DNA of 64,000 nucleotides from Gracilariopsis chorda. Lineage: Eukaryota; Rhodophyta; Florideophyceae; Gracilariales; Gracilariaceae. Numbering within the stretch: the stretch's first letter is position 1; the number at the start of each line of letters is the position of its first letter. This document shows positions 1,222-39,930 of this stretch, piece by piece. The stretch spans positions 218,785-282,784 of the forward strand of contig NBIV01000090.1 of the NCBI GenBank assembly GCA_003194525.1. The letters are read 5' to 3'. The notes below the pieces were generated by a model. The model saw only the letters and a program-made list of their open reading frames with translations, made no database searches and had not been told where the DNA came from. The position numbers and the translations under genes are program-made.

Positions 1222-3133
1222 CCTCGGACACATTCGCGCCGAATGCAGAGTTAAAAGACCGATTTACTGTGCAAAAAAACCGACATCCGAAACGCAGAAG
1301 AAATCGCTTCCCCAGGAGAAACAAGAACAGAAAGCAATGAAGAGCACGCCCCTGCAGAGAGTTGTCTGGGGATTCTAATATATTTCCCGGTTGCACCGGC
1401 GATTCATGTATGTTCATACATAGCTTTTTCCTAGACAGGTGGCGCCATTTGTGAGTTCCGGTTGGCCCAGCACGTCGGAAGTACATGTGTAGCATGAAAT
1501 GATTGTGGCACTTTTGAGCAAGGATAGATAGGCGACGGATGGTAATGATACATCCATTTATTTATCCATTTGTTTAGTCAATACAGTAGGGAAGCTACAC
1601 CACTTAGCGCGCCGGCCTCGCGACCGTCGCGTCAGTAGGCCTTCCTAAACAAGGCTTCCTCCTCTAAGGATCTTGGCTCGGACCTCTTGCGCCTTCAGCA
1701 GTACTCAAGTCCTCCTCGGAGGGATACCCCGTTTCCTGCAGACTGCTCAACCCCCTTGCTTTCCAAGTAACTTATCTTAGAGATATTACCCATTGTTTAT
1801 GGTTTCGTTCGTGTATACGGTCTATTATTCGGCACTGCCCAACTCTCCGGACCAACTTCCGTGACTTCTTGTCGTTCCCCTATCTCAGCTTTTTTCCTTT
1901 GTTCCTCTTCACTTCCCCATTTATTTCGTGTAGCTCCCGCTATCCGCGGCTCATACCGATACTTTTCGTGTGTCTGCCACCATGTGAACATATTTTCCCT
2001 CGTTGGATTGGTACAATACAGTAGCTGGGTTCATCACCCTCCTTCCTGCGCTTGTCGCGACGGATGACCTCTGCTTACCACTGACTCCGTTGTGTCATCC
2101 CTGGAAGGGTTCTTCAACTTGTAGTAGAATATTACGTTCTTTGGTCAACTGGGGTAGTAGTCTAGTAGGGGGTAGTAGCGGCAGAGAGCCAACCACTGGG
2201 GTGACAATCCACTGGGTCTACTAGTGACGCGGGCACCAACTGGCAGCGAGGCGCGATGGGCGGGCGCTATCTCAAGTACCTACAGGTCGGGAGAATGGTA
2301 GCGATGGCTTGGAGGCCTTTGGAGTTCTACTGGCTGCATATGGCTGCAAGAAGACGGTGAGAATGCTTTTCTTTACACTTCAGAGATCGGCGGCACTCGA
2401 GCCAGCCTATATGGCTGGCGAGGCGCTCTGACCTCTGGACACTATCCTAACAAATTAAATAAAATTAGCTACATAATAAAACCTATGGCCACAGTGCCTT
2501 GGCACTCGCAATGTCCCCTCGTATCTCCTGCATAGGCACCCAGCTTAGACACGTGGAATATGATGGCCAGTATTGTTCTGACCTCTGCCAACCCAGCCCC
2601 ATGGTTACCTCACCACTGCATCTGCCCAATGGTCATTCTCCTACAGAACTAAGTTGACGTCGTGAGAGGAAGATCCCGAATATCTTCGTGGTGTTTCCGT
2701 TGGCAGGCAGTACACTATAAGCAAGGACAATGGAACTCAAGCAGTCCTGAACGAATGCCAAACCGAAACAATAGCCAATGACATAACATTATCCAAGGTC
2801 CGAGAGGTTTTGCGGCAGTTGCTAAGACTTTGTCCTGCTTCTTTGATAGCAAAGTCAACATATGGCTCGAATTGGGTGCGACACATATCTTTGTCAACGT
2901 CAGTGTTCTCGGAATGCTAGATAGAGGTGCTAGATCGCAAGTTTCTTAGGCAAAAGCTCAAAATACTACGAAAATGATAGATTCTGCTAGTTTCCGGCGC
3001 TTGCCAAGTAAAAAAAAACCTTTTTTGGAATTCACACTTCCATATCTTACAGAGACCTGCCTCACCTGCACTGCGCATCGCTAGTTTCAAGTTTGGGGCA
3101 AGTCCATTCTCCACTAAAAGCTAGATACAGATC
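1222..3133. other. No gene recognised
   Basis: Only short overlapping ORFs without recognisable motifs. Some stretches (1590-1770, 2130-2290) look like LTR or leader debris, but I found no paired copy in the window to prove it. Confidence 0.4.
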
Positions 3134-3174
3134 TCGAAATGGCGCTGGCCGCGCAGCAGCCAGCGCCATTTCGA
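3134..3174. repeat. Perfect 15-bp inverted repeat (hairpin)
   Basis: TCGAAATGGCGCTGG at 3134-3148 and its exact complement at 3160-3174, separated by 11 bases (CCGCGCAGCAG). It lies about 200 bases beyond the 3' end of the minus-strand ORF at 3374-4060. It could be a transcript-end hairpin or a relic element terminus. Confidence 0.8.
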
Positions 3175-3373
3175 GCCCCCAACCAAAACTACCATTTTTA
3201 TTTCCATCTTTTGAATTTAAAACTTCATACTGCCCTAGTTTGACTTCCAACTCATCCTCAGGAACTCATCGGGGGAGCTCTCTCGGTTCTCATACACCCG
3301 ACGCACCGCCCATCAGGTTCCAATACCGCCCATTCCGTCGTCCTAACAGCCTCAACGACACTCCTAAACATCA

Positions 3374-4060
3374 CTAGCCTTCTTCTCCCTCTTCCCCCTT
3401 TCCATGCCTCCTCTTCAACAGACTCTTAACCTCCAATCCTTCTTCGTCCTTCTCCTCCAACCTCATTTTCACGCCCCCTCTACCTCCAGGAGTAACCGGA
3501 GACCCACTCCCGACAGCACCTCTCACCCCACCTTCCCCTCCACCTCCATACATCTTGTTCCGCATATCCTCGACTAGATGCACAGCCCTGTTTACCAGTA
3601 AAAGCCGCTTCTCCAACTCCAAAATCCATCCTCGCAACTCCTCATTCTCCTTCCACACCCTCCCCAGCTCCTCTCTCACACACACCACAACCCCATCGAC
3701 GTGCTGCTCTGCCCACACCCCAGCCTCCCTCACCCTCCGGCGCAACTCAGCCACAACACCCATTGGCACTCCTTCCTCCGACGCACTCAGAACCATCCAT
3801 CCCAACTCCACGACAATCTCCTCAATACACTCATCCAAACGCTCCTTAAGCCCTCCCTCAGCGCTCCTCAATAGTTCCTTCACATCGCAGCAGAACCCAT
3901 CCATTCGTCTCCTTCCACCTCCCCCTACCCCTCCTCCTCGACCACCCTCGCCCGCACCTCCCTCCCCACCATCCCCTCCCATCATCGTCCCAACCCTAAG
4001 CTCACTGACCGAAAATTGCAAATAGTATTCATGGTGCTTGTGGATGTTCTCAAATGACAT
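3374..4060 (-). CDS. Hypothetical Gly-rich/helical protein, 228 aa
   Basis: I do not recognise this protein. The ORF starts with ATG at 4060 and runs 228 codons. After about 25 residues there is a Gly/Arg-rich linker (residues 28-52), then a helical, Leu/Glu/Val-rich region (residues 55-165) with heptad-like spacing that may form a coiled coil. The tail is Gly-rich then basic/acidic. No signal peptide or membrane segment is evident. It is downstream of and co-oriented with the ParB/2OG-oxygenase gene, so it may be part of the same element. The opposite strand is also open here because of biased composition, so coding is not assured. Confidence 0.35.
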   Translation of the reverse strand: MSFENIHKHHEYYLQFSVSELRVGTMMGGDGGEGGAGEGGRGGGVGGGGRRRMDGFCCDVKELLRSAEGGLKERLDECIEEIVVELGWMVLSASEEGVPMGVVAELRRRVREAGVWAEQHVDGVVVCVREELGRVWKENEELRGWILELEKRLLLVNRAVHLVEDMRNKMYGGGGEGGVRGAVGSGSPVTPGGRGGVKMRLEEKDEEGLEVKSLLKRRHGKGEEGEEG

Positions 4061-4726
4061 GAATCTTCAAGAGTCGTGAATGAATGTTCAAGAGTCGTGA
4101 ATGAATTTTCAAAAGTCGATAATGAATTTCCCACCTCTTCACTTGAACCAACTTCGTCACTGCTTAAATGCACAGCTTATCATCTTCTCATTTGCTCACC
4201 CCTTGTCCTTCCCAACACAAAAAACAATATTTTGAACCTCTACACGATAATGCCTTCACCCTCTTCACTCTTCTTCATACATCAAGCACGCCACAATGCA
4301 TTCATGTATGAAAAGAACCAGTACTTTCTATATCAACAGAATGGACAATCGCGGTATTTGGCTATAACAACGGGATCCTTCACACCTGTACAATCACCTT
4401 CAATTCTCATACATAATCCCATACTCAATTTTACATCCATTCGTGTTTCATATCAGCTGCCCCTTCATTCTCCCCTCCAATACACCCATCCCAAGTTTCT
4501 TCTCATACTTGTAGACCTTTTATTATGGAATATAACAAAGCGAAATCTTTGTAGACATCATCCCTTCATTATTACGCATCATTCGAATGAAGCCGCATAA
4601 AAAGTAATCCCCATCGTAGTAAACCTCTCCCACTCACTATAAACGTTCACTATAAACATTCATTATAAAGATCAAAAAGCAATCACCAGATTTAACAAAC
4701 ATATATCACTAGTTTACTTATCATTA
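4061..4726. repeat. AT-rich spacer with two minisatellites
   Basis: At about 4065-4130 a unit like 'ttcaagagtcgtgaatgaa' is repeated three times with drift. At about 4635-4670 a unit like 'cactataaacgtt' is repeated three times. A 174-codon plus-strand frame crosses 4076-4600 but has no recognisable features. Confidence 0.5.
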
Positions 4727-5008
4727 TCAATCGCTTTCATCTTCCTCACCTATCAGACCCTCTGCTCCTTTAGGAACCATTTCACCCTCATCGTCATCCT
4801 CCTGTTCATAATCTCCATCATTGTTCATTTCCGCTGGTTTCAGTATATTCTCATCGTCCTCCTCATCCGACGGGTTCTCACCTTCGGCTTCTTGCATAAC
4901 TACATCTCTATCGTCAGCTTCATCTCCCCCCTCCTCTTCCCCTCCTCCCACCTCACATAAATCGCCACGGTCCTCTTCATCATTAAAAAAGGGAGGGCGA
5001 AAACCACT
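4727..5008 (-). pseudogene. Acidic C-terminal tail, in frame after the oxygenase stop
   Basis: The same reading frame as the 2OG oxygenase continues past its TAA (5009-5011) for about 93 codons to 4727. It encodes an extremely acidic Asp/Glu/Gly-rich stretch. Either the TAA is the real end and this is 3' UTR, or it is another nonsense mutation in a longer protein with an acidic tail. The first is simpler. The second fits the other in-frame stops in this gene. Confidence 0.35.
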
Positions 5009-6115
5009 TTACCTATGCACCGCATCCGGAAGATTGTATCCCTCAGGTACAAAGTACATATGGTATCGCATACAATAGCCTTTCGCTAATCCATCATTGT
5101 ACCCAGCCCCAGCATGAAATACATCCCCTCTTCCAATGAACAGAGAAAACGGTGGAACTCTGAACTTCCGAACCATCATAAAAGCCGAAAGCTCTTTCAA
5201 GTTACCCCGTGTCATTGTTAGAGTATGTGACCGTTCACAAACCCAAATCATGAACTCATCCGATCCCGATGCCATTGCAATATACCCCGGGTTCACATTT
5301 CTCATCCTGTCATTCTCCGTCAAACCCCTGAAATCCGTGTGTAGCACCTGCCTCCGACAATCCTCTCCAGTACAAAGAATACGGCCACCCATGTGAGGGG
5401 CATACATCGTTCCACCTTCACAAAACCCGAGAGCCGCTGCAATCTGACCGAGCCTTGCATCCAACATGGCTCTCTTTCGAGCAAGAACAGCACCATTTTC
5501 AAGCTCCTCAATTCTGTCCGCAATCCCTCGTTTGGTTGTGATGAAACGCCCCACCGCCTTGATACCATTCTTAACATCCTTTACCCCTCCTTCATTGATG
5601 ATCATATTCCAGAAAACACGATTCGCTTCGTTCGTGAGATCCGGTTGCGAAACAAAGTCGCGTTCGAAGAAGTCCATCAGTTCTCCTATCACATCTTCGT
5701 CCATTCGCAGTCTCCTCTTCGAAGCCTCACTCGCCATGCCTTCATCTGTCCCGAAATTCTCCAGCACACAAAACCCTCTCTCCGACAGCCCCACTCTCTT
5801 CTTCGCGAAGTAAACACAAGCCAAGTCCTCTCTCTCTAAAGCGGCCATCCATAACGCTTCCTCTTCATTCGATGCCGTTCCTGATGACGGCATCTTCACG
5901 CCCAGCACTGCAAGTGTCGTAGTACCCATCTCTTTGTGCATGTTGCGCGATGCACGCCAGTACAGAGCATGATGAACCATTCGGAAGTCATCAGGTGATA
6001 GGCACTCTGCCCGATGGTGCTTCCTCAGATTTATCCTCTGCATCCATGTATGAGAATGCTTCACTGCATTTCCGCTTGCAGGCCACTCACTCGGCAACGA
6101 GTATACCAGGTCCAC
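5009..6115 (-). pseudogene. 2-oxoglutarate/Fe(II) dioxygenase-like domain (element-borne)
   Basis: Predicted non-heme iron dioxygenase with a double-stranded beta-helix core. The C-terminal half shows the HxD...H...R signature: LHTDF (HTD codons at 5333-5341), GDVFHAGAGY (His codon at 5114-5116) and CMRYHMYF, where Arg would bind 2OG. The spacing of about 75 residues between HTD and the distal His fits the superfamily. Substrates in this fold include methylated bases (AlkB, TET/JBP), proteins and small molecules; the substrate here is unknown. The 368-codon frame opens with GTG directly after a TGA (6116-6118) and is in phase with the upstream ParB-like ORF. I therefore read it as the C-terminal part of one interrupted gene (8602-5009). 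An acidic tail may follow. Oxygenase assignment is fairly secure from motifs; a DNA-demethylase role is inference from context. Confidence 0.6.
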
Positions 6116-8602
6116 TCAAGACATGTCCGCTCCCATAGCCAGCTCTCCTGGCGTACGTAAGCCAGCTGGACGCTTGTCAGGATTCTTCTCGCCAAAGCTG
6201 CCTGAAGTTTGCTGCTTCTCTGCCTCGTCTTCCTCATCATCCACAAAGTTCTCCTGAGCTTCATCCTCGCTTGACTCGAGCACAATGATCTCCTGTGATG
6301 TCAACCACCTCTTCAAATCTCTCCCTTCCATACTACGCAGCACCTCCACCACCTTCTTTGAGGTACCAAAGCCAGGTCGCTTCACACCAGGTGCAGTCGG
6401 CTTACGATTCGATCGTCTCTGCCTCTTCACCGGTGGCTCAAAATCAACTGACTCTTCATCTTCATCTTCGTCCAGGATCTCCACTTTACGCTTCTTTGGT
6501 ATTCGCTTACTTCTTCGAGCCTCCTGGTCAGCGTTTGGAGGCTCCTGAGCAGCTTCCTCATTCAAACCAAGCAACGCAATCACGTCTACATCGGCCGCAG
6601 AGGGAGCAGCAGCAGTAGCATCCTGTCCCTGCATGCCCTGCAAAGCGCTGGACAACGTCCTACGAACCTCTTTCACCTTATTACTCACTCTGAACTCCAG
6701 TGAACTGCGTTTCCCTTTCGAATACCACTTCCCCAGACGAGGTATGATATACTTTGACACAGTGTGGTCAGAATAGCCGATGGTAACCGTGGTATTCATC
6801 ACTTCCTGTACATTCTTTTTCTCCTTCATGGACCTCCCCAGCTCACTGCAAATGTCATACGTTCTAGAAGCGCAGTCGAAGAAGTACTTTCGGAAATCCT
6901 CAAACGGTCCCATCTTCACAGTGGCCGCCGACCTCACTCCAACATGTGCCTGTACACATTGGATAGTAAAACAAAACTTATCCCCTGACATTCCAAGCAG
7001 AACACCACTAGAAACATGAGTGATTCTAATTTGAGGCGTCTCCTGCCACACCACATCAAAGAACTCTAACAGACCGGGATTACGCGCAAACTTCAGAGCA
7101 AGAGCAGAATGGCAATTGAAATGACGTATCTTGCCTTCTTTCCCCTTCGTCTCACTGCTCCACAACACCCCCGTGATTTGGCTTGGTTTAAGCTTCGACA
7201 ATTCATACCCATCCTGCTCTACGCCATTACGAATAAACGAAACAGCAGTGTGAATCTTATCTGCGAAGGACATCACCAGAACATTGGAGCTCAAACCATT
7301 CAACGTCTTCCCCAGCCACAACACCTCATTCAATGTCATTCTCCGGCCGTCGTTCCGTTCCAAAGCGTGACGTTCAAACCAGCATTAATCCGTGCCCATC
7401 TCGCACCATCCTGCTCGAGGCCCAGTAGAACAATCAGTCGATGGAAGCCGTCCACCAAAACCACAGGAACAATCAAACGCCCACTCGCATCAATAGCGTC
7501 ACGAACCGGCACATCCTCCAACCGGGCCACCGCAATCGACCCAAGAGAAGGGAGCCATCCAAATTTCCTCAGTTTGTTCGAAGTATCTCGAAGATGTTTG
7601 TCATTCTTCGAACGAACCATATTCTTCGGAAATCGAATGTTGTGGATATCGATTAGGCAATTGTGCTAGTCATAATCCTCTCGATTGATGTCTAGGACCC
7701 CCAAACTGTCATCTACCTCTTCTGAAGGAACAGCATCACCGTCATCATATAAAACCCTCTCCTTCGGATCAAGATCGTTCTTGGAGAGTACAGGCACCTC
7801 TATGACGTCATCATCGGAGCTTGCTCCGACTTCAGGGCCTCCTCGGTTTCCAGAGCCGCCCGCGAGAGCACCTGATGTTCCTCCACCGCTCTGACGGGTT
7901 TTCACCGGAGCCTCTCCACCGCTCTCAAGGCTCTTCACCGGCGCTTTGGTCACCAAAATGCTTGATGGTGTACCAGCAACAGCGGGAAGGCGCTTGACTT
8001 GTCTTGCAGTGGTCCTGGAAGCTGTACGTCTGTGGACATTCTTCAAATTTGCTCCTGACTGCGGTGGAACCGACTCATTCCCCTCTCCGCCTTCATTTTT
8101 GACACTCATCATTGCAGTGTCCCATGCATATAAACCCGCTGAAACTATCTCCTTCAAAGTTGCGGGCGGTTCCTCGGGACCCCCAAAAACATAAAGGTAC
8201 TTCTCATTTTGGTATGACGAAATATTTGTCTTAAAGATAACTCCCCAGTCCTCTCCAGGTCTCTGCGTAGAGGACAGGGGATGGTTATGTAGAGAACGAC
8301 AGAGTCTCGTCCCCGGCCCCACCAGCAACCCCCACACCGCGCAATTTCGCCTCTCCTACATTCACCTTTGCATCATTACTTCCAACTCGTACGAACAGAT
8401 TGACCTCCGCATCGCCCTTAAGCACCTGACCCGTATTGCCCCCAATTGATGGCTCAGGGTGGCTGGCAGTTCGGGTGGCGCCCCGGTTCTTCGCTTTGCC
8501 TCGCCTGGTCGGCATGTCGATAACACGTCTCTTCGGCGAAACAGGCTTCCACGGAGTCCGTTTCCGTGATGGCGCGTTTATCTTATTCCCAGTGCAATCC
8601 AT
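6116..8602 (-). pseudogene. ParB-like (Srx/ParB nuclease fold) gene, broken
   Basis: N-terminal and middle part of the gene that continues into the oxygenase. From the ATG at 8602 it has a basic, disordered N-terminus (to about 8290) and a Ser/Gly-rich linker (8337-7670). Then comes a ParB N-terminal-like domain (about 7665-7340). It shows the usual order: IDIHNIRFPKNMVRS, a Leu-rich helix, KFGWLPSLGSIAVARL, and the key DGxHR-type motif VDGFHRL (DGFHR codons at 7438-7452). About 400 residues without recognised domains follow, ending in a Lys/Arg- and Glu-rich linker with NLS-like KRIPKKRK. Damage: a frameshift near 8300, an in-frame TAG at 7666-7668, a frameshift near 7350 and a TGA at 6116-6118. 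ParB-like domains bind or cut DNA, and in phages they are often linked to DNA methyltransferases, as here. Confidence 0.55.
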
Positions 8603-8665
8603 GGCTGAGTACTTCAAAGGTCGCGCTTGCGTTTTCTTGGCACCCGCTGACGTCGAATGCTCCCT

Positions 8666-8985
8666 TGATCACGTATGCTTGGTTCCAAAGAGATGGACGT
8701 AAGAACTATATATCGTTTTCAAGACGTTTCATGACATCCATTGTCGTCAACGTAGCATCTCAGCAATTCCCCTCCCAATTAGTTGCATTGCAAAAAGAAT
8801 TTGATAATTTTTTGGTCGAGGACCATGATCCGAGGTGTCGTGGTCCTCCATCGCGAACATGATGGAGTGCCAGGACGCGAAATTTTAATTAAGATTCATG
8901 CCTGGCGCTCCATCGTGTTCGCGATGGAGCACCATGCCACCTCGGACCACGGTCCTCGACCCAAAATGAAGAGAATCATAATCCG
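8666..8985. repeat. Direct repeat copy 1 with 53-bp inverted arms
   Basis: First of two diverged copies offset by 487 bases. Inside it the arm at 8814-8866 pairs with 8909-8961 (47 of 53 positions by eye), around a 42-base loop containing 'ttttaattaa'. Arms begin GGTCGAGGACC and end CGATGGA-like. It could be an old MITE or a palindromic control element. Confidence 0.75.
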
Positions 8986-9152
8986 TGGCAACCAAGTCAA
9001 AAGCGACTTGCGCATTCTTCGCAACCGCATTCGTTGCGTCGGTTTGGGCGATTGAACACTTCTCTTGAACCCGAAGAACAACTTTTTCTTGTTAAACAAA
9101 GCACCGGAGTGGTCGTCTCCAACAGTGTTACCCCTTTCCTTTGAAGCCCCCG

Positions 9153-9473
9153 TGATCACGCCTGCTTGGTTCCAAAGAGATGGACGTAAGCACTATATAT
9201 CGTTTTCAAGACGTTTCGTGACATCCATCCGTCGTCATCGTAGCATCCCTGCAATTCCCCTCCCAATTACTTGCATTGCAAAAAAACTTTGATAATTTTT
9301 TGGTCGAGGACCATGGTCCGAGGTGTCGCGGTGCTCCATCGCGAACACGATGGAGCGCCAGGCATGAATTTTAATTAAACGTTCGCGTCCTGGGGCCCCA
9401 TCGTGTTCGCGATGGAGCACCATGACACCTCGGACCACGGTCCTCGACCCAAAACGAAGAGATACATAATCCG
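9153..9473. repeat. Direct repeat copy 2 with 53-bp inverted arms
   Basis: Second copy, from 'tgatcacgcctgcttggttc' to 'cataatccg'. Its inverted arms lie at 9302-9354 and 9397-9449, again around 'ttttaattaa'. The spacing of both copies and the 487-base offset are regular, so this is a tandem duplication of the whole unit. It ends 22 bases before the ATG of the methyltransferase gene. Confidence 0.75.
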
Positions 9474-9494
9474 AAGGAAACAGGTTCATTCAAG

Positions 9495-11757
9495 ATGAAC
9501 GGAACCGGAGAAGAGCTTATTGATGCTTATCTTGCAGTTCGTGATAACTACGCAGCGACGAGGCAAAATGTGGATGAGCCGAGAAGTTTAAGCACACCGA
9601 CTTTGTGGAGTTCGCGGTACAAAGTTGCAACGTTCATGACTCTGCCAAGAAAATGTTTCTCACTCTCATCGGACCGGATTAAATCTCGTATTCGGACTCC
9701 GAGCTCCATAACATGTCTTTCAGAGGCCCTCCACGTCAACTCTATCTTATGGCAAGAGTGGTGCACGTAAAGGACCGTGAAGAAGACAGGCGTGTAAGGG
9801 ACTTTTGGGAGGTTTATTGTAAAAGGGAAGGGCTTAAAGGAATTCCCCGTAACGTGTTGCTATCCCTCTTTTGCAAGTCCCGTGTTCTGGGAGCAACCAA
9901 GAAATCTTCCGCTTTCCACACGGATCCTTGCACCGACTTTGAAATGGTCACTGGGTTGTCTATGGTGCAACAGATTGCCGTGGATAAGAAAGGAAGTGGT
10001 AGGAAGAGGAAAAGGGCATGGCAGCTAAGAAGTTCTCTAAAGTGAGTTTGTCGGACATGACACAGAGTCAGAGAGTCGGGTATGGTGTGCAGCTGGTGAC
10101 CAGGGCTTGGGATTGTTTCGCCCAATTTCTCGGGTTTCCCAACGTTGAGGTTATGATCTTGCCTTACATTCGACTCGACTATATCAGTGTAGTCTTCACC
10201 GATATCGCACAACGCTCCATAGGCTTCCAACACAAAGATTGTTCCAAACAGTTTGTGGAGGAGAAGAACGTCACCACCGTAGAAGAAAACGTTACCAAAT
10301 GGGCATGGAATCTGCCGGACCCAGTGGATACAGCGCTTAGCCTTTGTGCCAAAGAATACCTTGGTGACCTTTCTAATGTGGTGGTACAAGAGAAACTGTT
10401 CGACATCTCTGCTCCCAGCAAATGCGATGCCCTCAAGAGGTTCATCATCACGAGAACGAGACTTTTCCCTCTGCGGTTTGAGAGCTTTAGTGAATCTCTT
10501 GTCACTACGGTTCAAGAGGCCATTAAGCCTCTGAAGCTCATTGCATTGCATGGAAGCAATGTCAAAGTTCATCAAGCTGTGAAACCAGAGCCCGCAGAAG
10601 ACGTTGAGATCATTATAGAGCCGGTAGAAACTGGTACGGCTGGTGGTGGTAACGAACGTGCTGAGCGTGTGGAAGGTGGTGATCAGGGTGAGTTGGAAGA
10701 AGTGGAAGATATAGAGATGGTAGAGGATGCGGAACGTGGTACTGCGGAACGTGGTACTACACCAAAGGCCACTGAAGGACTGCAGACAACAGCTTTGTCG
10801 CAGAACTTATCGTATGATGTCGAAGGCACGGGGATTCGTGCACCACCGTACCCTACGACTTTGGATGATGCGATAGCTTACACGTATTGTGAGAAGGAGA
10901 TGTCCCGCAACTTCCGTTTCCACAACTGCAAGTTCGAAAATCTCATCGAAGTTGACGACAACAAGTCTGGCGAAAGCGAGGTATCTATTGAAGGAAGGGT
11001 ACAGTTCCTGCTTTCCGATCCACCATATGGGACTCGTTCTGAGCGTCGTTTGGAGAACAGCGAACACGATATTATGACAGAGTAGGGCATGAGCAGGTCA
11101 GCGAGGAGGTCGTCAAAGCTTCTACGTCCTGGTGGACATATTATACAGTTGTGCTCATGGGATCAGGTACCGTTGTGGCGGGATGTGCTACGGAAAGTTA
11201 CCTACATGGATGACTCTGATACGATGCGTTACTCCTTTTTCGTCGACGAGCAGCCCCTCCATTTCGTACGGTCTTTAGGTAATACGACGGGTAACGTTGG
11301 GAGAAGAAGTTGTCGGTTGCACCAGACGACAGAATACGCTGTACATGATGTTCGTTCTGGAGTTCCTTATGCACAACAGCACCGGGTGGTCAACTATGAG
11401 AACTTCAATTATGTTGCTTCACGATACCCAGCGTATCATGCAATCATGGATCAGGTGCCGCCGATGTCAAATAGTGAGATGCTCATGTGGTCTGTGAAAA
11501 ACCCGGATGGGAAGTATACGAGGAAGAGGGTGCGACCGGAACAGAAGTGTAGGGCACGGTTGAAAGAGCTGATTTGCAGGTTAAGTCAGCCAGGAGACCT
11601 CGTGGTCGACATTTTTGCCGGAACGTTCTCGACAGCGATGGCGTACATGGAACTGCCCAAGCATCGGAAGTTTGTGGGGTGTGAACTGGACAAAGCTTGC
11701 TTTGAACACGCCAGGCATGCCACTATTGTTCGCTTCGCTTCCATAATACGGGAATGA
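9495..11757 (+). pseudogene. Beta-class DNA amino-methyltransferase (N6-A/N4-C), broken
   Basis: AdoMet-dependent DNA methyltransferase that would methylate the exocyclic amino group of adenine or cytosine. Catalytic motif IV is SDPPYG (DPPY codons 11017-11028). It is followed by LLRPGGHIIQLCS (motif V/VI region). Near the C-terminus comes the AdoMet-binding motif I/X region GDLVVDIFAGTFSTAMAY...FVGCELD (from about 11590). The order IV first, I last is that of the beta class (PF01555-like). The first 500 codons (9495-11000) are unrecognised, with an acidic linker near 10660-10740. Damage: two frameshifts (around 9720-9770 and 10018-10045) and a TAG at 11083-11085 just after the catalytic motif. 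Divergent from the ParB/oxygenase gene and 36 bases upstream of the SET-like ORF. Such enzymes are bacterial/phage-like and rare in eukaryotes. Confidence 0.65.
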
Positions 11758-11793
11758 CACACGGATATTGAGAAGAGCCAGAAGCTTCGAAAG

Positions 11794-12449
11794 ATGGCCC
11801 ATTGTGTTTCCTCTGCATTCCCAATGGGAAGAAGCAGGCACACCGTGTTATGGAGGGCTGTCGACGGATTTCCACCGTACCAAATTCTTCCCCCACACCT
11901 TGTCGACTTTCTCTCCACTTTGTGGCAAAATGAAATTCTAGGGAAGTTGGGAAGGAAGAAAGCTATAGATGGATGGCCGAAGGAGCTGCAGGGAAGAATG
12001 AATCTGGAGAACATGAAGTCTCTATTGGCAATGGAGGCTGTGCAATATGGGTTGCGAGTGGGCAAGTTTACTATTCGTCACGAAAAGGCTGGTGTTGGAG
12101 TGTTTGCAACTCGTCGAATTGCTGCAGGTGAGGTAGTGTGCTATTTCTAGGGACATTTGTTTATCATGATCTTTCGAATTGGAAAGAAGTGTACAAGATC
12201 TACGGGGAGGGAGTCATGGGTGTGACGAAGGATCGCTTCCGGAAGTATGCAGTGGAGATAGAAGTCTACGGTCAACAGTTCCAATCACTTCCGCATCGAA
12301 AACAGCTGACGAATTGGCATGGAAAACAACCAAACCCCATTTTATGGGTGGTTCCTGGCCCTTTTTGTATTGCGGGGTATATCAACGATCCAAAGTACGT
12401 GGAACGGGATAAAAAATTAGATGCCATGGTGGATGGCCTCTTGAAATAA
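11794..12449 (+). pseudogene. SET-domain-like protein (lysine methyltransferase fold), broken
   Basis: Short protein of about 215 residues resembling SET lysine methyltransferases. It shows GVGVFATRRIAAGEVV (from 12091), the classic SET-N opening, then LFLGTFVYHD in the next frame. Near the end comes GYINDPKY (about 12375), at the place of the fINHSCxPN motif but degenerate: His and Cys are not conserved. ORF 1 (11794-12150) stops by a -1 frameshift near 12135; ORF 2 (12138-12449) continues. It follows the DNA methyltransferase by 36 bases on the same strand. Histone is the usual substrate; with the H-C motif altered the target or activity is uncertain. Fold assignment is moderate, function inferred. 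Confidence 0.5.
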
Positions 12450-12905
12450 AGGGAGGCTAATGTGCGAATGAAACGGACACCGGGAGTGGGACGAACACCA
12501 GGGGGAATAACGGACTACAAACTTATTCAGATGGTGGCTACAGCCCACATAAAGCAAGGAGAGGAACTCTTCGCCAGATAGGGTGATGTTTCTGACTAAC
12601 AAACCCATTTGAATGTGGAGGATGGAATGATAGTCATTGATTAGTTCTTTGTTATAAACCTTTCTCCACAGCTTGGCTAAAGGATGTCGTTTATTATGTG
12701 AACGGATGTATAGTACTAACTTAGGACAATATTACTTTTCAGTAGGGATAGGAGATACAAAGCGATATAGATGTGACACAGAAACGTCCATTTTCGGTAC
12801 CACTGAGGATTGTATTTTCAAGATTTCACAAAAAGCAAAGATTTTTGTGCGCATCGGGTGGCAAGATTTTCCCAGAAAACACACGACGTGCGCCAACCCA
12901 GAGCG
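12450..12905. other. No gene recognised
   Basis: Spacer between the SET-like gene and the long unknown gene. Frame 3 is open from 12810, so the true 5' end of the next gene may lie here, but I see no in-frame ATG. Confidence 0.4.
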
Positions 12906-15142
12906 TCACCAGCCACTTGCGCAAGAGTTTTGACTCCAAGAATCGCGCCGAAGGGAAAGAAGCAAGGCCCAGGAAGGGGTAGTGCGGCGAGTGCGGCTAA
13001 GACGCGGCGAAAGGCTATTGAGGAGCGAACCACGAGTGGAACGAAAGCGAAATCATGTGTTCCCAGGAGTGGAATATCGGGGAGGTGGTGAGGAGAAGGT
13101 GCTTCGAAGAGAGGGGGAAGAGGTGGGGCAAAGAAGGTCGGATCCCAGCGCACGACGAGTGAGAATTTGAAGGCTGATGCCCATGCAAATATAGCAGGCG
13201 GGAGAGATTCGGTTCGGGGACAGCGATCTATGCCTGGGTCGGGTGGTAGAGTGGAGGGTAAAAAAGGGTTGGTTGTTCGGAGAACGGAAGAGGTAACAGA
13301 TCAGGGAGGGTTGAAAGGAAATGCGCCGGTCGAAGACCGAACTAAGGATGAAGATATGCCCGGAAGGAAACAAATAGAAGAGGCAGGTGGGCTGAAGAGA
13401 GGTGGGGCCCCAAGTGGAAACCGAGATGTAGGAGAGGTAAATGTCTCTTTGGTACTCAGTGATGGGGACGAAGAGGATCACATTGTGAAGGAGAGATGGA
13501 CGAGAGATATGATAAACGAAGGAGTGGGACGCCGCTCTAATTTAAAGGAAACGCGAGAAGTGGAAGAAGTGGTCAGAGCGACGGATGGAATACAGGAAGC
13601 ATCGAAAAGCGGAGACCGTACAAGCACACTCGTGCAGACGCAAAAGGTCCAAATGGCTGAAAACTTGGAAAGTGATAGAGGAAGCAGAACGCCACAGACT
13701 CTGGAAGGCATGCGAGAGAGAAAATGAATTGTTCATCGGTCGCCAAGTGAACCTGCTGACGAGCGAAGCCTGCCTGTCAATGTTTTTGGAGATGCAGGAA
13801 TTGACGACATCGGTATGATTTCTTGGTCTTCGTTAGTTGAGAGGGTCAATATATTGAGGGCAGAACTCGGACAGATCAAAGGGGACCACTGCAGCCTAAA
13901 GATGTCGCTGAAGCTGACCCAAGAGGAACTGAAGTGTATGAGAGAAGAGATGAGCGAGAAGAATATATTGATAGATAGCTTACGGGAATGGATGAAGGTG
14001 GGAAAAGGGGAGAGAAAGGGATCTGGAGGTGAAAATGGCTTGAGAGAGCGTAGGAAGTACGTAGTTGATGTGCAAGAGAGTTTTTATGGGTTTGCCAGGG
14101 TAATATATGATAGGTTGTTGTACTATGCGAAGGTGGAGGTATCGGAGTTTTGTTTTACTTCGGAGGGTGTGGAAAGAAACTGGAAGAATCGATGCAAAGT
14201 ATTGGGGAAGGGAAGAGAGTGGAGTGTGTTTGTCGTCGGTGGAAAGGAAATTATGCCTCGATGTCCGTTTGAGATCGCGTCTCAGATGAAGTCGTACACG
14301 CCTTCGTCGCAAGGAGGAAGTAATGACCAATTGAAGTACTTGGTTGGCGTTGAGATTGAGGGGGAGAGATGGCAGTCGATTAGTGATGCGGGTAGGAAGG
14401 ATCAATGCGTGCGGGAGGTTGTTGCGGACAGGTGTTTGAGGCCACATATGAAGCAGAATTTGAGTGATGTGATTGGAATTCGGAAGCGTGCGGCACCGGA
14501 CAAAATGCTTTCGTTGCTTAGATATGACTTGATCGCCAGACGTGTGAGACCACGAGAGGGGATGGGGCTAGACATTGAGTTGAAAAAGCAGTTAGAAGAA
14601 GCAAATACGTAGTTCAAGGGGGATGGGGAGGCAAAGAGCGGTAGTTTATGTTCTTGGAGGATGAGAACAATCGAGGATCTTACGTATTCTGGATTTCAGG
14701 TTGCTGGCCGGCTGAGGGAGTTTAGTGAAGAGGACATGTACTTCAAGAATGGGGCTGCGGTGGAAGTGTTGGAAGAACTCATGGGATATGAGGTGGGGAC
14801 GGAAAGGGAGGGAAAGATGGAGTACGTTGATGGGACAGTGATGCATTTGGCTCGTTTGGATGCGTGGATTGGATTTGTTTTGACAGCAATAGACACAGAC
14901 ATGGGGCTTGGAGGAAAACGGCAGTTGTTACTTTCTAGTTGTACGGGAAGTATCTTCGGTTTGCTGCGGAGAAAATACTTGGGGTGGCGTGGGAGAGGGT
15001 GAGAGAACTACATCATGAAGAATTGGAGAATGAAAGTTGCGATGACGGTGACCCGCGTTTTATAGCTAGGAATGAGAGTAGAGAAGCGAAGGTAGCGCTG
15101 TGGATACCTCCGAAACGGAAGATTGCGGAGATGGCGCGCTGA
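12906..15142 (+). pseudogene. Long unrecognised gene: basic disordered N-terminus, coiled coil, globular C-terminus
   Basis: I do not recognise the family. One frame stays readable from about 12810 to 14940, interrupted only by TGA (13089), TGA (13725) and TAG (14610). It then shifts frame near 14940 and ends with TGA at 15140. The N-terminal third (to 13580) is Lys/Arg/Gly-rich and likely disordered. About 13815-13990 has heptad-like helices (LVERVNILRAELGQI; LTQEELKCMREEM). The rest (14060-15142) has the balanced composition of a folded domain, with short conserved-looking blocks such as ESFYGFARVIYDRLLYYAK and RCPFEIASQMKSYTP. Orientation and spacing suggest it belongs to the same plus-strand gene set as the MTase and SET-like genes. 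Its end overlaps the convergent transposase ORF by 130 bases. No start codon can be chosen with confidence. Confidence 0.45.
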
Positions 15143-16458
15143 ATGAGGGCAATTCTTGTTTCGCGTGGGATTTTGGAGGACGAATGTGGGATGGAGCATC
15201 CGTCGTCGGGGGAGGAAGAGGGGGAGAAGATAGTTGGGAGGTATCCAAGTAGGGTGAGGTTTTGGGAGACACACTTTCGGTGGAATGCGTCGGAGATGTT
15301 GAGAAGGGTGATGTGAAGGGGGTAGGAGGTGATGGAGGAGCCTTTGAGTGAGGTTACAGACGTATCGGAGTATAACTGGACGAGACCGACGAATGATTCC
15401 ATACCGGTTGTTTCGGGGGTGTGCCAGACGATATCATTGATGTGGCACTGCGTGATGGCCTGTTTAAAGACAGGAACGACTTTGTTTCAGAAGGCTGCGG
15501 CCATAGGATGGGCGAAGGCGGGGGTTGAAGAAGAGTAAGGTGAAGATTGGGAAACGCGTTGTAAGAAGATGTTGTTGAAGTGTGCGAGAGCGATGTGTTG
15601 CTTCAGGACGTCTATGGTGCCTTTTTGGAAGAGAGTTGCGGAGAAGGAGTTGTGCTCGTCGGAGATTGTGAGAGGGAGAAAACTGGTGGAGTTGATACGC
15701 CCCTTGACGAGGTGTTCTTGGAGTGCGAGGCACTGCTTTGCGGAGGAGATGGATTTCTGGAAGGATGACCTGGAGACGTCTGGGTGGTTGAGAAGGGAGA
15801 TGAGTTCGTCGGCTTTGTGTGTGCTGGAAGAGGAAGCGATGGAGGAGATGCAGAGGACGATTTGCTCGAAATGGGGGTTGTTGAGGAGAGGGCAGGGGGA
15901 TTGGGACGAGGTATGGGGAGGTGGGTTTGAGGAGGAGACTGAACAGAGGGCGTGACTTGCCATGTGGTGTGCGTCTTGTGTTTTGAGGGAAAGGGAGGCC
16001 TGTTGCATGTGATAGGGTTCATCTTCGGCGAGGGGGACGTGGTCGGAGGGGCGGTGTGAGGGAGTGGGAGGAGGAATGATGGAGAGGTTTGGAACGGATT
16101 TTCGTCGCTTGGTCCTTGGAGGGAACTGGACGGGAGCGTTGGCGGAGGAGGAAGAGCGTTTGTCGGGGGTGAGTCGATGAGGGCACTTGCGTTGGTGACT
16201 CTGGAGAGAGAACGCGGTGCGGCCATAGAAGGTACAACGGGGATGGCAACAGGGTATCATGGCGTGGAAAGGAGAACGGAGAACGGGATGCTTGGAAACA
16301 GAAAAGGGAGGGTGGTGGCGGAGTGGGATATCGGGGAGCGTAATATTATGGCGCACGTAGATGAGGTGGTGCACGTGATGCAGAGCGTCTTTTCGCAGGG
16401 CGTGGGGTAGAGCATGCGATGCAGGGAGCAGGTCGGGCAACGGGGGATAGAAAGCCAA
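15013..16458 (-). pseudogene. Plavaka/KDZ-like transposase, N-terminal half
   Basis: N-terminal and central part of a large DDE-type DNA transposase. A C2HC zinc finger lies near the start (CCHPRC...LQSHQRKC, residues about 70-95), followed by a Ser/Pro-rich linker and a helical block. After an in-frame TGA (15487-15489) the same frame gives LVQLYSDTSVTSLKG...YPLHITLLNISDAFHRK...LLGYLPTI. This matches the pattern 'ysDkT.ls..g.k..yPvyltlgNi...iRrk...llgylP' of Plavaka-type transposases; the first catalytic Asp would be in YSD. The frame ends at 15013 and the rest of the DDE domain is missing or overwritten. KDZ elements in fungi carry TET/JBP genes, which makes its position next to the modification genes notable. 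Family name is from motif memory. Confidence 0.5.
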
Positions 16459-16971
16459 AGCTATTTGGTTATGTAGACGCTATGTATCTATTCTATCTAT
16501 TCTATTTTGCTATTTGAAAGGGCACTCGCTCAGGAACAGTAAGATTTGGATTCCATGTGCACCTGAGAGGGTAGGTATTAGCGGAGTCTGGCGCTAGTTT
16601 TACTTCCAAAGAAACTGGGAAATGTGTAGTATACTGCTAGTCTTTTTTCCCAAGCAAACTAGCTCTGTGCTATGTATGGAATTATTTTTAGAAATTTGAT
16701 TCATTCAAAATTGGGTTTGAAGAGTCGTTATTCGTTCATTTTAATTCTTTGCCTTTTGAATGCCAAACTAGTATAACGAGAACACCGACGATGTCATGTA
16801 GTCCACGTCCATGTACTGGGAGGGTCGTTTGAAATATCTTTCCAGCAGGGAAGACGTCAGACATCTACGCAGTCTTACCTTTCGAATCAAAACCTGTCAC
16901 TCTCCACGGAGATGTATGTGAAGTGCTTGTACAGTTGGATTGATGCGAACATGCCTGAACTCAAAGAGTTT
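16459..16971. other. No gene recognised
   Basis: AT-rich spacer between the transposase start (16458) and the Helitron remnant. No repeats or ORFs of note. Confidence 0.4.
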
Positions 16972-18514
16972 CTATGCAGCTTCAACCGCGCCCACCACTC
17001 TCGCTCTCATATACGCCCTGATCTCATGTTGAAGCATGTCGCTCTGTGCACCTGATTGGATTTCCTTTCGACTTGATACAACGAAATCTTGTTCTTTGGC
17101 ACTCTTGAAAGCCCCATTCATCAGGTATGTTACAGTGCTGCCACCTTGGGTTCTTTCAACACAGATGTGAGCCCTGTACTTCATTTTGAGATCTGGATTG
17201 TACGGAACCACTTTCAAACCTTCTGTCCTTCTTCATCTGGTAGGTCACTCGGTTTGTGTACTCATTTATCGTTTTTTCAGCCATAATTTCTTGTCGATCA
17301 TACCAAAAGTGGCAACTTCCGTCAGAGATCCGACCACGGCAATATGGAGAGTGTCTTTGCATATTCAATTTCTTGACCAATTTTTGGAGTTCATGCTCTT
17401 CAGGCGAGTCACCCCGAGGCAGTTCGGCTTTGATCAAAGTGTCAATGATCTCAGGATCTTCAATTACACCCCCCTCCCACCAAAGAGGAATGTGATCATG
17501 TAGAGTATTTCTCTCCTGGAACTCAACTTTAGCGGCACTCCCAATGCAGTTCAAGCCAAAGAGCTGTTCTGAATTATTCTGTAGATTATTCATGATTGAA
17601 TTTCCATGCTGGTTGTACACTCTTTCAATAAGATCTGGCCTATCAAAGGACGGCTTCTGTCTCACGGAAAAAAATGCTCCAGTTTTGTCATTGTCCATAC
17701 TAAGCCCTTTCATCTCTTCCCGCCATAATTTCATTGTGAATGTGACGAAAAGCGTCGGGGAGCCCAGTCGAACGACCATTGCTTGCACATCCAGTCGTTT
17801 TTTTCTCCAGTACGCCAGAGAGTTTTTGTGATTACCTGGAAGGAAGAGTTTACCGGGAGGGCCAATCTCATCTGTTCCGGTATGGGTTCCAGCCCGCAGC
17901 TCACTTTCTTCAACCATTCTCATCTGTTCTGTTTCCAGGTAGCGAAGTCTCAAGTCTGCAATGTTTGCGCTAGAACGAAGCAACCATTGCTGAAGAAGAG
18001 TTCCAGGGTTCAGCAGCACATTATAGGTGTACAGTCTTCGCTTATAGTGTTTTGCCCATATTAGGCTCCTGTCGTCTCGGTTTTTTGCATCCCTTGATGA
18101 AATACATGTTTCTGTATCATACGGGGCATGAATCTCACCGTAAGCGTAGAGCAGTAGTAAAGCCCCTTTCTCAGCCTTCATTGAATCAAGCTTTAAACGC
18201 TGGTATTTGACAACTCGACATCGAAGATTTCCGTTTGACATGTGATGGGATTCTTTTCCCCCTACCAGCTGGGAAACTGGGGCTTCCGACCCGAAAAGTC
18301 TACTTGGCTCTACGACGAAAGCTCTCATTGCAAGAGGTCTGCCTCGGCTGTCTTCTGGTACGGATGCTGCACCGGAGCTCACCTCGATTCGGCCTTCATG
18401 GGTACCTTGATAATTCCGGACAACTATTCCTTCATGGACAGCGTCTGCAGACCTGTCCAGAGTAGACTCGCCCACGTTTGATCTCCTCCGAACAACTTTG
18501 TCTGGTTTGAACAA
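16972..18514 (-). pseudogene. Helitron Rep (HUH) domain fragment
   Basis: Rolling-circle Rep endonuclease part of a Helitron polyprotein (Helitron_like_N). From 18514: an N-terminal region, then LLQQWLLRSSANIADLRLRY, GNHKNSLAYWRKKRLD and the GSPTLFVTFTM block. These match the canonical 'fqqy..D.ya.ie..rL', 'GSpR.m...y.Da' and 'G.PdlFiTfTcNP' blocks. The metal-binding HUH motif is visible as LHDHIPLWW (H-D-H). After a frameshift near 17200 the next frame gives VVPYNPDLKMKYRAHICVE and EIRAYMRARVVGAVEA, matching 'vvPyNp.ll..y..HinvE' and 'dEi..y...RyvsasEa'. The Tyr motif region is degenerate and the SF1 helicase is absent, so this is a truncated copy. Possible further N-terminal remains reach to about 18990 in other frames. 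Confidence 0.75.
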
Positions 18515-19781
18515 AACATTCTATATCTCTGTAGGACAATATCTGGTCTTGGTTGCAAGAGATCGTATAATTTTGGAACCAAGTATCGAATATTCGGTTT
18601 AGACACCATTCTTCTCGTGAAAGAAGAAGAATAATCACGTGAGTTAAGACTGGGAGGACCTTCCGATCACAAATATTTGTAGCGCATGTCCTGGCCTGGA
18701 GCAGAAAGAGACAAATTGCCTTGAAATCGAAGAAATGACGGACCTCCACTCTGAACGTGCTTCATACACATGAATGTGATAACGATTGCAAATAACACAT
18801 TTAAGTGTGTTGATAGCGTTTGAAAAGAACGTAAGCGATATATGTCTTCAAGTTGAGAATTGATATGCACTCGTCTGAAAGAAACTCCAAGCGATCTGGA
18901 GCTTTTATATCCATAGCATGTTCCTTCAGTCTCTGCAGTAAGCATAACTGCACCATAATACTTGCACATAAGAATACGAAGCATGCACCCCAAATCTTTG
19001 AGAAGACATCAAGTTGCTCGATGGCTCTTTGCACCGCACGTCCCACAACACACTGGAAGTGTGCCAGTGATTAATTGGTAATCCGGATATGAAGAGCTCG
19101 GACGTGCGAGACCTTGAAGAATGTTTTCTGCCGTTGCATCCAAGAGATATTTTGCTCCATAGTGAATGCCTTAATGAGGTCTCCCAGCGAACTGCATAAC
19201 CATCCTATCTCGTTCCTTTTGAATGCCGGAAGAATGAGAGGAGTTCAAGTAAATCTTTCAGGGTTATGAAGTTCCATAAAATTTTGGAGAAGCTCAGTTC
19301 TAGTTCCTAAGAACGCCTGCGCAAGTTCATCGGTTATGTCTCTATGATGCACGGGCTATATATTTTCTCTTGAACGACGGCCTGCTCCTGACCGGCGTCC
19401 ACCACGTCGTGATGGCGGTCGATGCGAAGAAGAACTCATGTCGGACTGTGGGAACCGGAGAGAGATTGAAAGATTTGGTGATCACCTTTCGATGGAACAT
19501 GTACCTTCTCCGCCCTTTAAGTAGAGAACTGGTGTTGGACATTAGTTTCCCGCATGAAATATTATACTTATTTTCTTCATTGTCTCATGATGTTCCTGAC
19601 ACCAGCAGTACATTGATAATTTACATTCGTATTACTTTACTAAGTACATATGCATTGCATTCTTATTCAGTATTGGTTTCAGGCGTTAATAAATATCGAG
19701 TACGAATTTACCTACCTATGAAACGTATAGTTGATTCCTATTCTTGTTTTAGGGTTCGGCGTTTGTATAACTGTTGGGGCA
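18515..19781. other. No intact gene; possible Helitron N-terminal debris
   Basis: Short minus-strand frames between 18424 and 19046 sit directly upstream of the Helitron Rep and may be its scrambled N-terminus, but no motif is secure. A 142-codon plus frame at 19370-19798 shows no recognisable feature. Confidence 0.3.
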
Positions 19782-20543: not shown

Positions 20544-20643
20544 CTACCATTGGCTAGTCGTTTGCAGGGAAATAAATGTGTGTTTATTGATGAATTGTAA
20601 GGGGTCAACTTGCTCGTTGTCAGAACAATCCTTAGGTAGGTTA

Positions 20644-22525
20644 GACAAGTGAAAACGGCCTTCGGCCGTGGGCGGCGCTGCGCGCCGCGTGGTTTTTGTA
20701 GCTTTGTGTATTTCGTATTGTTTGGAGGCTCTCCGAGCACTTTCCTCGCTTGCGCTCGCGAAAGCGCTCGTAGAACCACGGGGCGCCGCGGCGCCTAGAG
20801 TATGTGGAGCCATTAGGGTTTGTGTTTAGGTATCTAAGTTGACTGCAGTGCCAGCCAATGATGAGAAAGCACGACACGTTGCTTTGTGTAACTGGGTGGC
20901 ACTGCAGTCATTATGGGAGTGCCAGCCAGTAAGCAGGAAGCTTTGCTGCTGCTGCTGCTGCTGCTGAATTTTTTAAATGGTAGAGAGGCGTTGCGCCAAA
21001 TGGGCGATTTGCATGCGCAAATGGGGGCGTGCAAAGCGAATTTGTGGCGCAACGCCTCCCGTCAGTCAACAACACCCCCCTCATACATGTGTAAATCATT
21101 AAGAGTGGGGTGTTGAGACAAGTAGAAACGGCCTTCGGCCGTGGGCGGCGCTGCGTGCCGCGTTGTTTTTGTAGCTTTGTGTATTCAGTAGCGTTCGGAG
21201 GCTCTCCGAGCACGTTGCTCGCTTGCGCTCGCAAGAGCGCCCGTAGAACCACGGGGCGCCGCGGCGCCTAGAGTATGTGGAGCCGTTACGGTTTTTGTTT
21301 AGGTGGCTAAATTGACTGCAGTGCCAGCCAATGATGAGAAAGCGCCACACGTTGCTTTGTGTAACTGGATGGCACTGCAGTCATTACGGGAGTGCGAGCC
21401 AGTAAGCAGGAAGCTTTGCTGCTGCTGCTGCTGCTGAAGTTTTTAAATGGTAGGGAGGCGTTGCGCCAAATGGGCGATTTGCATGCGCAAATGGGGGCGT
21501 GCAAAGCGAATTTGTGGCGCAACGCCTCCCGTCAGTCAACAACACCCCCCTCATACATGTGTAAATCATTAAGAGTGGGGTGTTGAGACAAGTAGAAACG
21601 GCCTTCGGCCGTGGGCGGCGCTGCGTGCCGCGTTGTTTTTGTAGCTTTGTGTATTCAGTAGCGTTCGGAGGCTCTCCGAGCACGTTGCTCGCTTGCACTC
21701 GCAAGAGCGCCCGTAGAACCACGGGGCGCCGCGGCGCCTAGAGTATGTGGAGCCGTTACGGTTTTTGTTTAGGTGGCTAAATTGACTGCAGTGCCAGCCA
21801 ATGATGAGAAAGCGCCACACGTTGCTTTGTGTAACTGGATGGCACTGCAGTCATTACGGGAGTGCGAGCCAGTAAGCAGGAAGCTTTGCTGCTGCTGCTG
21901 CTGCTGAAGTTTTTAAATGGTAGGGAGGCGTTGCGCCAAATGGGCGATTTGCATCGGCAAACGGGGGCGTGCAAGACGAATTTGTGGCGCAACGCCTCCA
22001 TTCAATCAAAAACACCCCCCTCATAGAGGAACAAATACTTATAATGGAGAGACAAGTGGAAACGGCCTTCGGCCGTGGGCGGCGCTGCGCGCCGCGTTGG
22101 TTTTGTAGCTTTGTGTATTTAGTAGCGTTCGGAGGCTCTCCGAGCACTTTGCTCGCTTGCGCTCGCAATAGCGCTCATAGAACCACGGAGCACCGCGGGG
22201 CTGAGAGTATGTGGAGCCGTAGGTGTTTGTGTTTAGGTGCTAAAATTGACTGCAGTGCCAGCCAATGATGAGAAAGCGCGACACGTTGCTTTTTGTAACT
22301 GGGTGGCACTGCAGTCATTATGGGAGTGCCAACCAGTAAGCAGGAAGCTTTGCTGCTGCTGCTGCTGCTGAATTTTTTAAGTGGTAGGGAGTCGTTGCGC
22401 CAAATGGCAGTTTTGCAAGCGCGTATAGGGGCATACAGGGCGGTTTATTGGCGCACCGCCTCCCGTCAATCAAAAACACCCCCCTCATACATGTGTAAAT
22501 CATTAAGAGTGGGGTGTTGAGATTG
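20644..22525. repeat. Tandem array: four ~470-bp units rich in inverted repeats
   Basis: Units begin at about 20644, 21115, 21585 and 22049 (periods 471, 470, 464, then about 477). Each has, in order: a GC palindrome 'cggccttcggccg'; 'ggcgctgcgcgccgcg'; a 'ctcgcttgcgctcgc' block; 'ggcgccgcggcgcc'. Then come a pair GACTGCAGTGCC...GGCACTGCAGTC, a CTG microsatellite (7, 6, 6, 6 copies), a pair GTTGCGCCA...TGGCGCAAC, and AACACCCC...GGGGTGTT. The second and third units are nearly identical, so amplification is recent. Open frames through the units look like by-products of the repeat. Confidence 0.9.
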
Positions 22526-39922: not shown

Positions 39923-39930
39923 CTCCCCTC
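39923..39930 (-). other. Polypurine tract
   Basis: Minus-strand GAGGGGAG immediately upstream of the 3' LTR. This is the normal position of the plus-strand DNA primer in LTR elements. Confidence 0.85.

Follow-up and report, generated by a model that had tools for sequence, protein, structure and literature searches.

What kind of DNA would bring together, within 7.7 kb of a red algal genome, likenesses of a ParB domain, a 2-oxoglutarate/Fe(II)-dependent (2OG) oxygenase, a DNA methyltransferase (MTase) and a SET protein? The question is posed by positions 4727 to 12449 of a 64,000-nucleotide stretch of Gracilariopsis chorda contig NBIV01000090.1 (C90:218785-282784, hereafter the window), where a first-pass annotation had proposed a decayed mobile element with four broken genes. 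Based on searches of the 91.3-Mb assembly (1081 contigs; C-numbers denote sites in that assembly), the element in the window is a defunct derivative of a many-copy transposon family. The four fragments were recovered at the proposed places and in the proposed divergent orientation; they constitute two proteins, ParB with 2OG and MTase with SET, instead of four separate genes, and the element extends to 2898-16790, well beyond the 7.7 kb originally assigned, with an 821-amino-acid (aa) protein gene and a truncated Plavaka transposase that had been missed. On balance, the probable explanation is a DNA transposon of the Plavaka group (CACTA/EnSpm-like) whose conserved cargo would act on the element's own chromatin as a self-targeted anti-silencing system. 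The features of the window copy are as follows.

2898..16790, no strand: whole transposon copy, 13,893 bp, internally deleted; borders by homology to other copies
2898..2920, plus strand: left terminal inverted repeat (TIR), 23 bp, CGTCAGTGTTCTCGGAATGCTAG; comparison of termini
3374..4003, minus strand: remnant of the gene for a 276-aa glycine-rich protein; BLASTN, 79% to C550, 74% to C204, 80% to C37
4004..4582, minus strand: 5' end and upstream part of a 417-aa membrane-protein open reading frame (ORF), body deleted; BLASTN of 4112-4582 to C204 131238-131728
4727..8587, minus strand: ParB-like plus 2OG-like gene, disrupted by frameshifts and in-frame stops; tblastn with the C550 protein as query, residues 58-1417, three pieces
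5012..6097, minus strand: 2OG-Fe(II)-oxygenase-like region; HxD..H..R motif, without profile support
7282..7669, minus strand: ParB/sulfiredoxin-like region with VDGFHR; motif and conservation, without profile support
8809..8966, no strand: palindrome 1 of the divergent promoter, ~66-nt arms, ~26-nt spacer
9297..9454, no strand: palindrome 2 of the divergent promoter
9480..12641, plus strand: MTase-SET fusion gene, broken; tblastn of the C332 protein, residues 24-1065, four pieces
10999..11712, plus strand: beta-class amino-MTase domain; PF01555, E=1.7e-11, one stop inside
12085..12641, plus strand: SET domain; PF00856, E=2e-5 in the C550 homologue; placed by motif
12870..15124, plus strand: gene of the 821-aa protein, without known domain; tblastn, residues 23-770
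15118..16416, minus strand: Plavaka transposase gene, 5' part (residues 1-435), rest deleted; tblastn
16768..16790, minus strand: right TIR; comparison of termini

The borders are defined by the points at which homology to other copies begins and ends. On the left, homology starts at window 2894-2898, in common with C1, C7, C286 and C204, and on the right it stops at 16790/16791, in common with C286 and C550; the 23-bp inverted repeat is found at each end of the homology region, and its family pattern has 286 genome matches versus 1 for the reversed control. The element ends read CGTCGGTG..CACCGACG. A 2-bp target duplication is present in 8 of 11 paired elements whose two ends were read by eye (TA in 5, TT in 2, CA in 1), and was not seen at the remaining three, the window copy, C134 and C286. 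Paired termini lie 15.8 kb apart in C1, C7 and C114, and the young subfamily would measure ~18.3 kb, judging from the overlapping copies C204 and C550. The class assignment draws on the transposase. Its open frame has 1138 aa in C550, where PF18759 is matched at E=2e-21, above the curated cut-off, and up to 1160 aa elsewhere; the truncated window gene retains a match below the cut-off (15232-15522, E=4e-4). In the genome, PF18759 has 114 matches, 110 of them above the cut-off (the window's own is below), compared to none in 14 control genomes, and the CPRC motif was seen in the test of Plavaka membership. The mobile element of the first-pass annotation is thus borne out by copy number, termini and transposase remnant alike.

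The family comprises an old subfamily, including the window copy, with 71-79% DNA identity to C550, and a young one in which C332, C37 and C53 are 99.0-100% identical to C550 over BLASTN stretches, short repeat pieces aside. Amplification of the family is recent. Some tblastn pieces of young copies reach only 79-83% identity (the ParB-2OG end of C332, the MTase of C204), which we tentatively put down to frameshifts. Young copies (C550, C204, C332, C53) share a gene order of 276-aa protein (-), membrane protein (-), 1417-aa ParB/2OG protein (-), 1065-aa MTase-SET protein (+), 821-aa protein (+) and Plavaka transposase (-). In the window copy, little remains of the membrane-protein gene, the transposase is missing past residue 435, and stops or frameshifts interrupt both cargo genes. 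That all genes are broken holds for this copy; elsewhere, the 1417-aa frame is open in C550 and C204 and the 1065-aa frame in C332, C53, C745 and C241. Likewise, "decayed" describes the window copy well and the family poorly, given its near-identical copies with open frames.

Co-occurrence across the genome corroborates the fixed order. The counts are of matches, not elements, because a single copy can be hit in several pieces (C22, C135 and C220, for example, give two matches each). An MTase match lies within 10 kb of 49 of the 73 ParB-2OG matches, with all 49 pairs divergent, and within 12 kb of 73 of the 114 Plavaka matches (~4% expected by chance), with 72 of these 73 convergent; a Plavaka match lies within 20 kb of 32 of the 73 ParB-2OG matches, 31 in the expected arrangement. 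The exceptions to the expected arrangement are C23 and C37. PF01555 has 150 matches in the genome and PF00856 has 132 at E<=0.1, and for 98 of the 150 MTase matches a SET match follows on the same strand within 1.7 kb downstream. The 13 strongest SET matches fall outside this MTase-adjacent set and look like host genes. Within this genome, the genes therefore occur as multicopy units with the same order and common termini, and not each as a separate single-copy locus, the outcome that had been named as speaking against a mobile element.

The plus-strand cargo is one fusion protein, an amino-MTase with SET behind it. PF01555 is matched above cut-off in both the window (E=9e-11, at 11086-11757) and C550 (E=1.5e-11, curated cut-off), and a DPPY motif within 11014-11037 precedes the S-adenosylmethionine (AdoMet) motif within 11605-11637. 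DPPY suggests N6-adenine methylation; the motif is changed in C263, C204 and C7. SET is recognized in C550 (PF00856, E=2e-5, 25.3 versus a cut-off of 22.4 bits), and the broken window piece falls below the cut-off (E=0.058, 14.3 bits). SET homology reaches ~12641, past the earlier end at 12449. At the position that we take to be that of the usual NH motif, ND is read. Six loci of IMG/VR match the MTase alignment, in the MTase part, and a scan of prokaryotic species genomes with that alignment returned no relative.

The minus-strand protein carries a probable oxygenase and a ParB-like part, as suggested by motifs and their conservation. The ParB-like region has VDGFHR at window 7438-7455, in a stretch presumably akin to the ParB/sulfiredoxin region, and the oxygenase-like region has LHTDFR (5327-5344), HAGAGY (5099-5116) and RYHMY (5054-5068). 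An alignment of five sequences (window, C550, C172, C179, C125) has HxD, H and R without variation; the five count as three families since window and C550 pair up, as do C179 and C125. DGxHR is kept in the C550, C172 and C263 lines and lost in C274 and C347; HTD is changed in C1, C39, C274 and, by frameshift alignment, C332. The C263 relative has 44% identity to C550 over 936 aligned residues and as query retrieves 73 genome matches, with identity down to 29% and with long open frames in C172 (1349 aa) and C539 (1369 aa, one stop inside the match). A series of further long open frames adjoins this relative (L020, C263:95901-105800).

Purifying selection is indicated for both cargo proteins. 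Ratios of nonsynonymous to synonymous divergence (dN/dS, Nei-Gojobori) were obtained by comparing the C550 or C332 proteins with old-subfamily copies, stops and gaps left out; comparisons in the young lineage are too shallow for the purpose, and the 7-kb derivative C37 is too like the young copies. The values are 0.10-0.15 for the ParB region (9 copies), 0.10-0.19 for two 2OG regions (8 copies; C286 is without them), 0.14-0.17 for MTase and 0.14-0.23 for SET (4 copies each), compared to 0.20-0.35 for the Plavaka core (4 copies), so that constraint on the cargo domains equals or exceeds that on the transposase core. Against C263, one region gives a value (2OG, 0.21) and the others are saturated. 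Matches in the genome number at least 109 for a 422-aa piece of the minus-strand gene and at least 81 for a 542-aa MTase-SET piece, fragments counted. Together with the dN/dS of 0.10-0.23 in the domains, these numbers exclude that the fragments are products of chance.

Between the divergent genes, the window has two palindromes of ~158 bp, 488 bp apart. C550 and C204 each have two 86-bp palindromes, whose 43-nt arms match perfectly or nearly so; in C550 the two lie 236 bp apart. Among other young copies, a single palindrome is found in C37, and in C332 and C53 a complete one is accompanied by a partial one. C1, C7 and C286 have one each; four, with a sequence of their own, are present in the C263 relative. 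Searches with the palindrome cores gave 118 genome matches for the young type and 99 for the old type, with 0 for each control; for the old core, the one tested, each of the 99 matches has a ParB-2OG or MTase match no more than 5 kb away. A nested dyad reads GGTCCGTGGACC in young copies versus GGACCGTGGTCC in several old copies, an A/T swap. We considered and dropped its interpretation as a compensatory change; covariation is not claimed because many old-type arms read GGTCCGTGGTCC.

That the element manages its own chromatin is suggested because gene set, selection and promoter palindromes all fit. In the mechanism proposed, a cut-and-paste Plavaka transposase would act on the 23-bp terminal repeats and give rise to the 2-bp target duplications. 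The 1417-aa protein may bind the palindromes: its ParB-like part would recognize them in the promoter and bring the oxygenase-like half to the element, there to oxidize a repressive mark, be it 5-methylcytosine or other methyl mark. The MTase-SET protein would write DNA N-methylation together with a histone-lysine methyl mark. Jointly, these activities could sustain expression of the element or conceal it from silencing. A bolder version, to which we attach little probability, has the ParB-like protein loading at the palindromes as at a parS site in mid-element, spreading as does bacterial ParB and carrying the oxygenase along the transposon, while the MTase-SET protein, as a single polypeptide, links DNA N-methylation to methylation of histones; sequence and number of the palindromes would then set the family that is recognized.

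Several observations weigh against a self-targeted system of this composition. The profile searches advised for confirming each domain passed MTase (window and C550), SET and Plavaka (both C550) and failed for ParB and oxygenase, so that two of the four proposed domain identities stand by profile, SET in the C550 homologue, and two by motif. At E<=10, six ParB/2OG pieces gave no Pfam family; with five aligned relatives, Pfam returned DUF5523 (0.037) and CTK3_C (2.6), each in one of the five; PHROGs gave one unnamed family at 0.2 and no oxygenase; and sequence searches of the PDB were empty, bar one TetR regulator at 0.55. Genome-wide at E<=10, neither the ParB N-terminal domain PF02195 nor the TET/JBP family PF12851 has a match. 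Single-sequence AlphaFold models of the window ParB and 2OG pieces were too poor to use (mean confidence, pLDDT, 38.5 and 33.1). The HxD..H..R triad is suggestive only, because one such triad also arises in 964 of 20000 shuffles (4.8%) of the 107 invariant residues, and C1 has a 1062-aa open frame in which QTD replaces HTD. As for selection, other cargo parts (linkers, N-terminal) give dN/dS of 0.11-0.40, and with dS among old copies of ~0.5-1.9, partly near saturation, and the common ancestry of these copies, the dN/dS values are in effect one deep comparison.

The unity of the element is likewise qualified. No partner match accompanies 41 of the 114 Plavaka matches (MTase within 12 kb), and the same holds for 24 ParB-2OG and 52 MTase matches; the causes may be ends of contigs, decay, search thresholds or a gene that is truly missing. 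In C28, C125, C190 and C320, ParB-2OG and Plavaka are present and no MTase match lies within 12 kb. No one copy is shown with every gene intact: C550 has MTase-SET frameshifted and the membrane-protein frame broken, C204 has the MTase broken and stops at a contig end, C332 has ParB-2OG broken and C53 is without it. A 7-kb deletion derivative, represented by C37 and by further copies whose open frame has 608 aa, keeps the MTase, is without the last 52 residues of MTase-SET and retains the first 96 residues only of ParB-2OG. It was amplified though the SET end and most of ParB-2OG are gone, and therefore not all parts are needed in cis. An amplified locus of this derivative with the MTase frame open is L072 (C37:52450-59800).

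How then are the alternatives to be judged? The cargo could be a passenger or a tool for manipulating the host, its enzymes altering host chromatin or aiding repair or replication at excision, with no marking of the element itself. The marks might lie elsewhere than on the element, and the conserved multi-pass membrane protein fits poorly with pure self-marking; self-recognition is nonetheless favoured by the palindromes at the shared promoter, the restriction of the old-type core to the vicinity of element genes and the fixed gene order, and we regard the passenger explanation as unlikely. Improbable to a further degree is that the palindromes represent terminators, sources of hairpin RNA or scars of recombination and the ParB/2OG likeness is accidental, which would make MTase-SET the sole epigenetic cargo. 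It would accommodate the derivation of ParB and 2OG from motifs alone and the old-subfamily arms that, in reading GGTCCGTGGTCC, break the nested dyad; it does not explain why triad and DGxHR are kept across families and why palindromes persist in both subfamilies and in the 44%-identical relative.

Two further explanations would remove the element from chromatin biology or from transposons altogether. ParB-fold domains include nucleases, and the best relatives of the MTase in PADLOC are type II restriction-modification MTases; a ParB-like nuclease cutting unmodified DNA, with the MTase protecting genomes that bear the element, would thus constitute an addiction system. However, the 1417-aa protein matches no PADLOC family at E<=0.1, and both oxygenase and SET would be unexpected in restriction-modification, making this very unlikely. 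We give still less credence to an endogenous virus or virus-derived giant repeat, for which one could cite a set of six genes with a membrane protein among them, a match below threshold between the middle piece of the window and the phage capsid family PF17236 (E=0.099) and the Plavaka-flanked giant repeats in the available part of the Amoebidium report (PMC11244446). No capsid, polymerase or packaging family was found above threshold in the ORFs scanned, and four IMG/VR scans gave no relative beyond the six MTase-domain loci, those with the 2OG and ParB alignments yielding none; tblastn of the ParB and 2OG pieces against phages gave matches at E>=3 only. The Plavaka transposase, the short terminal repeats and the 2-bp duplications are in keeping with a DNA transposon.

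Regarding known systems, the closest analogy is with the Plavaka elements, and other DNA transposons, of fungi that encode TET/JBP, described by Kojima 2025 (PMC12730594). To the extent of the text available, the fungal Plavaka and the present element both have the transposase, TIRs, 2-bp duplications (as in PlavakaA), an oxygenase or oxygenase-like cargo and a proposed escape from silencing. The present element is distinct in that its oxygenase-like region is not recognized as TET/JBP and is joined to a ParB-like region, and in its MTase-SET fusion, membrane protein and palindromes. Its ends CGTCGGTG..CACCGACG match neither TGT..ACA of PlavakaA nor CATCA..TGATG of PlavakaB, as given there. 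SET is likewise transposon-borne in HarbingerS and oomycete MuDR, as cited in the accessible portion of PMC12730594, but with other transposase superfamilies, and the fusion of SET to a DNA amino-MTase sets the algal element apart. The Arabidopsis VANDAL factor VANC binds repeated motifs in the non-coding DNA of its own transposon and removes methylation (PMC5735166, in the part available). Common to both cases are an element-encoded factor and non-coding repeat sites that differ from one related element to the next; VANC, for which binding and demethylation have been shown, targets short tandemly repeated motifs, whereas here there are long palindromes and predicted enzyme domains. The giant repeats of Amoebidium are also Plavaka-linked, multigene and from a non-fungal eukaryote; they carry many tyrosine-recombinase genes, and the portion of PMC11244446 at hand describes no set of MTase-SET and ParB-2OG. 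Bacterial CcrM, DpnA and RsrI share the PF01555 domain with DPPY before the AdoMet motif, unlike the algal protein in its long N-terminal extension and C-terminal SET fusion. In the open-access literature, including algal genomes and mostly as judged from search listings, no report of an MTase-SET or ParB-2OG transposon was found; with protein comparison confined to this genome, novelty of the combination is provisional.

If the self-targeted reading is true, mobile DNA in this lineage has evolved its own mark-writing and probably mark-erasing system. Compared to transposons with single epigenetic enzymes, the novelty would lie in a selected, fixed-order pair of amino-MTase-SET and ParB-like/oxygenase-like proteins. 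In Gracilariopsis chorda, methylation of transposable elements is associated with small RNAs, according to the consulted part of a review (PMC8566409). The family would moreover provide a natural test of N6-adenine (or N4-cytosine) methylation in a eukaryotic genome, because near-identical copies with and without individual parts share one nucleus.

The remaining genes and the surroundings are described briefly. The 821-aa protein has no Pfam family at E<=1. The membrane protein, with about five hydrophobic segments, has 107 genome matches; 15 cover the whole 416-aa query at 98-100% identity, and 14 of these are free of stops; distant forms of ~33% identity lie near ParB-2OG in other families (C131; C28, with relative strand reversed). 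A multi-pass membrane protein is thus kept as transposon cargo across families (L013:4040-5290). Just beyond the right end of the element, 17159-18520 hold a Helitron_like_N ORF (E=4e-18), followed at 20642-22650 by tandem units of ~470 bp, the longest part of which is present four times; related sequence adjoins the C204 element copy. An open 859-aa gene like GH36 alpha-galactosidase at 36369-38945 is probably of the host. At 39625-44849 there is a retrotransposon, presumably of Ty1/copia type given its RVT_2 domain in a 1115-aa open frame, which looks very recent; its direct repeats, 298 bp each (39625-39922 and 44552-44849), are identical.

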